NCBI GenBank assembly: GCA_002787235.1
Contig: PCWG01000003.1
Span: forward strand, 1-38,276
Length of the DNA stretch: 38,276 nucleotides
Direction of reading: 5' to 3'
Source of the DNA: Nitrospinae bacterium CG11_big_fil_rev_8_21_14_0_20_45_15
Lineage (GTDB): Bacteria > Nitrospinota > Nitrospinia > Nitrospinales > VA-1
How positions within the stretch are numbered: the stretch's first letter is position 1; each line of letters opens with the position of its first letter. Of this stretch, positions 12,283-13,293 are shown in pieces. The notes below the pieces were generated by a model. The model was not told where the DNA came from and did not search any database. It saw only the letters and a list, made by a program, of their open reading frames with translations. A program made the translations under genes and the position numbers.

Positions 12283-12320
12283 AAAAGGGGGCCTGCGCCT
12301 TGTGGCGCAAGCCCCCTTTG
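12283..12320 (-). terminator. Intrinsic terminator of the PCP_red-HemQ gene
   Basis: AAAGGGGGCCTGCGCC (12285-12300) pairs with GGCGCAAGCCCCCTTT (12304-12319) across a 3-nt loop with one mismatch. On the minus strand the hairpin is followed by TTTTTAC. It begins 17 nt after the stop of the 12337-13293 gene, so that gene is a discrete transcript end. Confidence 0.88.
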
Positions 12321-12336
12321 AATGATGCGAGATAGA

Positions 12337-13293
12337 TCAGCCGAGGCTGTTGATTGTATCTTCCAGTGACATGGCGATACAGGTGAAAATTGGAGTGTCC
12401 TCCACAACATAGCGACTGCCTTCGGTTTCTCTAAGTTCCATAACAAGATCCACAAAATCCGCGGGGTAGTCGGTCTCGAAGGCAACAACAAATTCTTGAT
12501 CGTCGATCCCAAAGGAATAGGTGGTGTTCAATTTAACAGAGGGGAATTTATTCCCAACATAGATATGCTCATCCATGATCCCTTGTCGTGTGAACTGGGT
12601 AAGCAAGTACCATTCCCGTGATTTGACGAAAGGATAAATGAACAAATACTTCGCCTTGCCGGGGATGATGTGGGTTCTGTCTTCTTCGTGCTCGGGATTG
12701 AACATGTCCTGATACATGGACCGCTTGGTCATGGACAAGTAAGATATCGTCGTATTGAGATAAGCACCCAAACGCGTTTTCAGCAATTGCGTTGTCATCT
12801 TTTGGAACTCTTCGAGTTCGTAAGAGATGCGCCAAAGCATGATATCGCAGTCGCTACGAATGCCAACCATGGAGTAGCTGAGCAGAATCATTTTGGATTG
12901 AGTGTCGTATTCTTCCAAAAAGTCAATGAACTCTCTCTTTGCGGCTTCCTTTTCTTCTGTAGGCAGACGTCGGAAAGATGGATCCAGTTTGTAAAAGGAA
13001 AAATTGACGTATTGTCTTTTTACTTCTTTATTAGCAGTCGTTTCCGCCTGTTGTTGGGCTTTCTCAGCTCTCGATGCGGCGATAGCGGCACCTTCCCGTT
13101 CTTGTCTTGCACGAGAAACCACTTCGTCATCTACCTCTGTAAGGCCTTTGTCTTTTGCGTAATTTTCGATTCCACGGACTACACTTTTTCGGACGAAGAA
13201 GGGAACATTCTTCATCCTTTCCACCGCTTCGTCGGTCCAATTCAATTCCACAGCCGGCATAAAATCTTCCAGCTCTTTGTCGTCGATGCTCAC
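12337..13293 (-). CDS. PCP_red domain fused to a chlorite-dismutase/HemQ-family haem enzyme
   Basis: 318 residues. Residues 15-63 match the PCP_red domain found at the C-terminus of light-independent protochlorophyllide reductase subunit B (NWTDEAVERMKNVPFFVRK...ENYAKDKGLTEVDDEVV). A charged helical linker (64-93) leads to a full Cld-family domain (94-318). Proximal haem ligand is His243 (MDEHIYVG). The coproheme-decarboxylase tyrosine is Tyr220 in FIYPFVKSREWYLL. At the distal position, where true chlorite dismutases have a catalytic Arg, I see Leu255/Asn256, as in actinobacterial-type HemQ. Coproheme decarboxylation is therefore likelier than chlorite dismutation. It has its own terminator and is divergent from the CDF gene. 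Confidence 0.87.
   Translation of the reverse strand: MSIDDKELEDFMPAVELNWTDEAVERMKNVPFFVRKSVVRGIENYAKDKGLTEVDDEVVSRARQEREGAAIAASRAEKAQQQAETTANKEVKRQYVNFSFYKLDPSFRRLPTEEKEAAKREFIDFLEEYDTQSKMILLSYSMVGIRSDCDIMLWRISYELEEFQKMTTQLLKTRLGAYLNTTISYLSMTKRSMYQDMFNPEHEEDRTHIIPGKAKYLFIYPFVKSREWYLLTQFTRQGIMDEHIYVGNKFPSVKLNTTYSFGIDDQEFVVAFETDYPADFVDLVMELRETEGSRYVVEDTPIFTCIAMSLEDTINSLG

Follow-up and report, generated by a model that had tools for sequence, protein, structure and literature searches.

The fused gene and its distribution

At positions 12337 to 13293 of the window (the whole stretch of DNA that was analysed, 38,276 nucleotides) lies a gene whose 318-residue product joins a PCP_red domain to a chlorite-dismutase-family domain. 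Its features are as follows.

12337..13293, minus strand: coding sequence, 318 aa, fusion of PCP_red, a long helix/linker and a chlorite-dismutase-family (HemQ/ChdC-type) domain (open reading frame, Pfam, relatives)
13105..13239, minus strand: PCP_red domain, residues 19-63 (Pfam; profile match to 2kru/2l09 and BchB C-termini; predicted fold that of 2kru)
13024..13104, minus strand: linker, residues 64-90, comprising the end of the long helix 56-85 and a low-confidence hinge 86-89 (AlphaFold2 model)
12376..12948, minus strand: PF06778 domain, residues 116-306, with the alpha+beta barrel starting at about residue 95 (Pfam and model)
12688..12690, minus strand: His202 codon, possible distal base, in the CdChdC H118 column by HMMER, alignment uncertain (alignment; PMC9953210)
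12634..12636, minus strand: Tyr220 codon, counterpart of the catalytic Tyr, CdChdC Y135 (alignment; PMC9953210)
12565..12567, minus strand: His243 codon, proximal heme ligand (alignment)
12529..12531, minus strand: Leu255 codon; the column holds the distal Arg in Cld, Gln in Bacillota ChdC and Ala in actinobacterial ChdC (alignment)
12284..12319, minus strand: intrinsic terminator, 16 bp stem, z −6.7, immediately 3' of the stop codon

Pfam assigned residues 19-63 to PCP_red (PF08369; 52.9 bits against a cut-off of 32.5, E 3.7e-14) and residues 116-306 to Chlor_dismutase (PF06778; 202.3 bits, E 7.1e-60, above cut-off), and gave these two domains only. No nitrogenase-like domain lay ahead of PCP_red, which ruled out the protein as subunit B of a dark-operative protochlorophyllide reductase. 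The start codon is GTG; since the N-terminus MSIDDKEL is kept among relatives, this start is credible. Given the terminator after the stop codon and an upstream neighbour, a CDF transporter, in divergent orientation, the gene appears to be monocistronic, a transcription unit of its own. The AlphaFold2 model of the protein (mean pLDDT 82) consists of a helical PCP_red domain, the long helix, the hinge and a confident barrel, and the predicted barrel matched ChdC/Cld structures with a TM of about 0.8 by target length (Foldseek). For the small domain by itself, the best fold match was 2kru, an NMR structure of BchB PCP_red (rmsd 0.8, E 7e-4); after the PCP_red structures came AAA+ ATPase lid domains (RuvB/RuvBL), at an E of about 0.1 that is not significant.

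The host genome, of 3.37 Mb, has its nearest relatives in the Nitrospinaceae, among which the isolate OFTM96 has a fusion protein 91% identical to that of the window. Full-length fusions were present on about 40 independent Nitrospinota contigs and were 69-91% identical over residues 1-318, so the fusion is not the product of chance or mis-assembly; with the Pfam domains, these copies bear out the earlier note, which had proposed a PCP_red domain fused to a HemQ/chlorite-dismutase-family enzyme. All tested families of the host order Nitrospinales have the fusion, in frames of about 317-356 aa, and some incomplete genomes are without it. Elsewhere in Nitrospinota, the Cld-family proteins of f5 and f6 are unfused and either divergent or of Cld type, and families f7-f9 have none. 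The fusion was also found, with the same domain order and similar spacing, in three genomes of a second phylum (L042/G057, G100 and G198); being fixed in Nitrospinales and recurring in another phylum, it is no artefact. Comparison of a single with a double origin of the fusion favored neither (AU p 0.498). In the literature searched, which was mostly without subscription journals, we found no publication on a PCP_red-HemQ architecture.

Active site, clade and heme pathway

We aligned the Cld domains with reference proteins that included HemQs and the plasmid-borne Clds of Ideonella and Alicycliphilus. Published comparisons distinguish Cld, with Arg plus Ile, from ChdC, with Tyr and either Gln or a distal His (review, PMC7611857). 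In our alignment the Ideonella and Alicycliphilus sequences, both true Clds, read NVKRKLYHS, with Ile in the tyrosine column. Tyr fills that column in the actinobacterial HemQs, whose motif is DVRANT or similar, and in Paenibacillus HemQ, whose motif is KVKQII. The fusion protein reads SVKLNT and has Tyr220; at the distal Arg column of Cld stands L255, followed by N256, just as the earlier note had stated in placing Leu/Asn where true chlorite dismutases have Arg. The HemQ Tyr was present and the Cld Arg missing in each fused row. Y220 and H243 were invariant among the 56 aligned proteins, and W228, R288 and the L-N-T motif were invariant or nearly so. The earlier note had called both Tyr220 and His243 HemQ-type; both residues are indeed there, but the proximal His is shared with true Clds and does not by itself mark a HemQ. 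The remaining Corynebacterium ChdC residues described alongside Tyr135 are His118 and Thr172 (PMC9953210). HMMER placed His202 opposite His118, a placement that was less sure in the wider alignment, and His202 was missing from the Chloroflexota relatives and from some of those in Armatimonadota, with Gln or an acidic residue in some relatives; His202 is therefore no more than a possible distal base.

The tree of the Cld domain, which the earlier note had proposed as a check, placed the fusion outside the chlorite-degrading clade: a branch with support of 100/100 separated the fusion and the HemQs from a group made up of all true Clds, the Nitrospinota proteins of family f6 and the Nitrospinota paralogs that bear the Arg. 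In this first tree the true Clds attached beside the second-phylum fusions via a very long branch, a position that we do not trust. The best solved relatives of the fusion were actinobacterial coproheme decarboxylases (E 2e-25). Its scores fell below the NCBIfam HemQ equivalog cut-offs, at 143.8 against 235 for NF042928 (actinobacterial HemQ) and at 82.5 against 253, which points to a separate subfamily of the same kind of enzyme. Together, the residues (L255, Tyr220) and the tree confirm the expectation that a 'chlorite dismutase' label would be wrong.

A divergent Cld-family paralog with the distal Arg (FRKLYHS) and without the HemQ Tyr occurs in Nitrospinota (L185-L193) and is missing from the fusion host genome. 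Chlorite dismutases form lineages 1 and 2, with lineage 2b known from Nitrospina gracilis (Barnum & Coates, PMC9751292), and by sequence this paralog is probably the lineage 2b Cld. In two f6 genomes, G002 and G003, the Cld-type protein is unfused and shows the Arg signature (L195, L196); G002 had neither ferrochelatase nor HemY over cut-off.

The content of heme genes was judged by family searches with curated cut-offs that covered HemH, HemY, HemF, HemN and AhbD-like proteins. Ferrochelatase HemH was present in the fusion host genome, confirmed by TIGR00109, and in each fused genome searched for it; HemY was above cut-off in the host and in all searched fused genomes except G004. One genome without Cld, G053, had partial HemY and HemH. 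HemF was found in none of 14 genomes, and true HemN was above cut-off in none of the Nitrospinota searched; the best HemN-like match of the host was HemW (TIGR00539, 336 bits), with a TIGR00538 score of 194 against a cut-off of 325. The host thus has the gene content of a coproporphyrin-dependent pathway, HemH and HemY without HemF or true HemN, as the earlier note had suggested be checked. True HemN was missing from all 11 tested fusion-bearing genomes of both phyla and present in three second-phylum genomes having PCP_red proteins but no Cld, a co-distribution whose cases are few and related and which we treat as a consistency check, not as a statistic.

Unfused relatives of the fusion in Anaerolineae and Armatimonadota have a barrel about 50-55% identical to its own. 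The Rieske Cys/His motif was present across nine loci, and Pfam identified a C-terminal Rieske domain in L080. A ferrochelatase gene lay directly downstream of the unfused relative in eight of the nine loci of one subgroup. At three loci a gene for an AhbD-like radical SAM protein came next; the two of these that were scored reached 454-456 bits, short of the cut-off of 500. The loci encoding a HemQ-type protein with a C-terminal Rieske domain upstream of ferrochelatase are L066, L072, L074, L075 and L077-L080. The Rieske-HemQ loci have the appearance of a heme operon whose ChdC is iron-sulphur-linked, and we take the linkage to ferrochelatase as the strongest functional evidence for HemQ/ChdC identity. 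Around the fusion gene in Nitrospinota there was no heme operon; its conserved neighbours look like housekeeping genes.

PCP_red proteins of the host cell

The host genome contained nine PCP_red matches in five proteins, none of them ChlB/BchB. The four proteins besides the fusion are listed here.

L090:5944-7294 (locus): zinc ribbon plus PCP_red, 145 aa, beside an Mrp-like ATPase at L090:5944-6834
L091:6919-8994: universal stress protein (USP) with three PCP_red domains, 691 aa
L092:8006-9370: NirJ2/AhbD-like radical SAM plus PCP_red, 454 aa
L093:5558-6388: three PCP_red domains in tandem, 276 aa

PCP_red was present in 54 of 57 Nitrospinota genomes, mostly with eight or nine matches each. 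PF08369 has been listed among the most prevalent Pfams for pre-screening phototrophy (PMC12815261); such a pre-screen would flag almost all Nitrospinota genomes, in which the PCP_red proteins examined were not ChlB. Two further proteins (L240:6444-7355 and L243:3985-4836) have PCP_red at the C-terminus behind different N-terminal parts, of which one resembles, by eye, a flavin-reductase-type domain.

The gene for the zinc-ribbon-PCP_red protein adjoined an Mrp-like ATPase gene in 28 of 29 loci (from 21 Nitrospinota genomes and four of another phylum), and in G038, of the same genus as the host, the fused HemQ gene lay about 1.3 kb from this pair. At two loci of that other phylum, L236 and L238, genes for USP-PCP_red, GNAT, Mrp, zinc-ribbon-PCP_red and radical SAM-PCP_red proteins were clustered with HemY and heme O synthase (CtaB). 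The same clusters also hold cytochrome c and EB_dh-type cytochrome genes.

The radical SAM-PCP_red protein was the only AhbD-like protein of the host genome. As AhbD and HemQ are two alternative last-step heme enzymes (review, PMC7242693), both host candidates for the last step bear PCP_red. The case for the radical SAM protein as a plain AhbD last-step enzyme was nevertheless weakened by its score of 313 bits against the AhbD cut-off of 500, and also by the true HemN of the three second-phylum genomes, which have related PCP_red clusters. As it scores below the cut-off, and as genomes with related clusters have no need of it to make heme b, the radical SAM protein may catalyse some reaction other than that of AhbD.

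Role of the fusion and comparison with known systems

We conclude that the fusion protein is very probably a coproheme decarboxylase (HemQ/ChdC), and we infer its catalytic activity from that of its family. In the barrel, His243 would ligate coproheme, H2O2 would serve as the oxidant and Tyr220 would relay the radical while two propionates become vinyls; the heme b so formed would complete the host's coproporphyrin-dependent heme pathway. The N-terminal PCP_red would be an accessory docking module, carried on the long helix and hinge, that probably brings HemQ/ChdC to a partner common to the PCP_red proteins of the cell. This docking role we propose tentatively and hold weakly, with the Mrp-like P-loop ATPase as the best candidate for the partner; it is suggested by the occurrence of PCP_red on unlike proteins, by the conserved linkage to a P-loop ATPase gene, and by the parallel with dark-operative protochlorophyllide reductase, whose NB protein has the L protein as an ATP-binding partner (PMC7948495).

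Other roles for the two domains have to be weighed against these. It is conceivable, if rather unlikely, that PCP_red serves generally for oligomerisation or solubility and has no heme-specific role, its presence on HemQ being historical; unfused relatives manage without it, and the linker of the fusion is of low confidence in the model, but the domain is found in every complete fused copy in Nitrospinales, where it is strongly conserved (NVPFFVRKSVVRGIE), and the same fusion recurs in the second phylum. That PCP_red itself handles porphyrin, receiving or shielding coproheme or heme beside the barrel, we consider unlikely. The best-known home of the domain is a tetrapyrrole enzyme, it sits on a heme enzyme and on the NirJ2/AhbD-like radical SAM protein, and the HemY and CtaB genes of L236 and L238 adjoin PCP_red genes, all of which would suit such a role; yet its invariant columns include neither Cys nor His, and three of the five host carriers (the USP, the zinc ribbon and the triple PCP_red protein) carry out no tetrapyrrole chemistry themselves, which favors docking over general porphyrin handling. 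The suggestion in the earlier note of a general porphyrin-handling or docking module therefore stands as far as a mobile, heme-linked module is concerned, and its porphyrin-handling half is disfavored. For the barrel, a non-catalytic role as heme carrier or sensor would accord with the low HemQ equivalog scores, but the conservation of the catalytic Tyr, the proximal His, W228, R288 and L-N-T, and a host genome with no other coproheme-decarboxylase candidate above cut-off, make it very improbable. That the fusion makes O2 from chlorite is scarcely credible despite its Pfam family label and the separate Cld-type paralog of some Nitrospinota, as it lacks the distal Arg, has Tyr instead of Ile and lies outside the Cld clade, and an ISME J correction has withdrawn the Cld label from such proteins of nitrite oxidisers in oxygen minimum zones, which lack key residues (PMC8319166).

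Taken as a HemQ/ChdC, the fusion protein is unremarkable as a catalyst; its domain architecture is what is new, and it belongs to an as yet unexplained group of PCP_red proteins. That such proteins of nitrite oxidisers are not Clds was already in print in that correction, and our analysis settles the label of the protein type called chlorite dismutase in marine nitrite oxidisers. It also adds to the evidence that a diderm phylum uses the coproporphyrin-dependent route to heme, and it presents PCP_red, in use as a sign of chlorophyll synthesis, as a widespread module of proteins that are non-phototrophic and in part linked to heme; the few, clearly delimited proteins concerned now make the role of the module open to testing. 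A bolder version of the docking proposal, which we regard as decidedly unlikely, would make PCP_red a docking tag of heme metabolism, through which the Mrp/zinc-ribbon pair, a USP hub, HemQ and the AhbD-like radical SAM protein would assemble as ChlL, a NifH-like ATPase, does with ChlB; if true, heme would be synthesized in a complex that could change over from an oxidative to an anaerobic final step and back.

Compared with known systems, the fusion most resembles HemQ/ChdC (Corynebacterium diphtheriae 6xub, Streptomyces coelicolor 9miq, Geobacillus 1t0t), with which it has in common the barrel, the proximal His, the catalytic Tyr, the lack of a distal Arg and, in the host genome, the coproporphyrin-dependent route; it differs in its N-terminal PCP_red, in Leu at the Gln/Ala site, and in an identity of about 28% with scores below the equivalog cut-offs. 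With the Clds of lineages 1 and 2 it shares the Pfam family and the fold, whereas it has no distal Arg and lies outside their clade. Its PCP_red domain is 42% and 38% identical, over the domain, to that of ChlB/BchB (2kru; 2ynm) and to stand-alone Asr4154 (2l09), with the same predicted fold, but here it precedes the barrel of a heme enzyme, and the host genome has no ChlB/BchB among its PCP_red proteins. The Rieske-bearing ChdC-type proteins of Anaerolineae and Armatimonadota (L066, L080 and others) have a related barrel and are encoded in a heme operon with ferrochelatase; as accessory domain they carry a Rieske [2Fe-2S] domain at the C-terminus, in place of the N-terminal PCP_red of the fusion.
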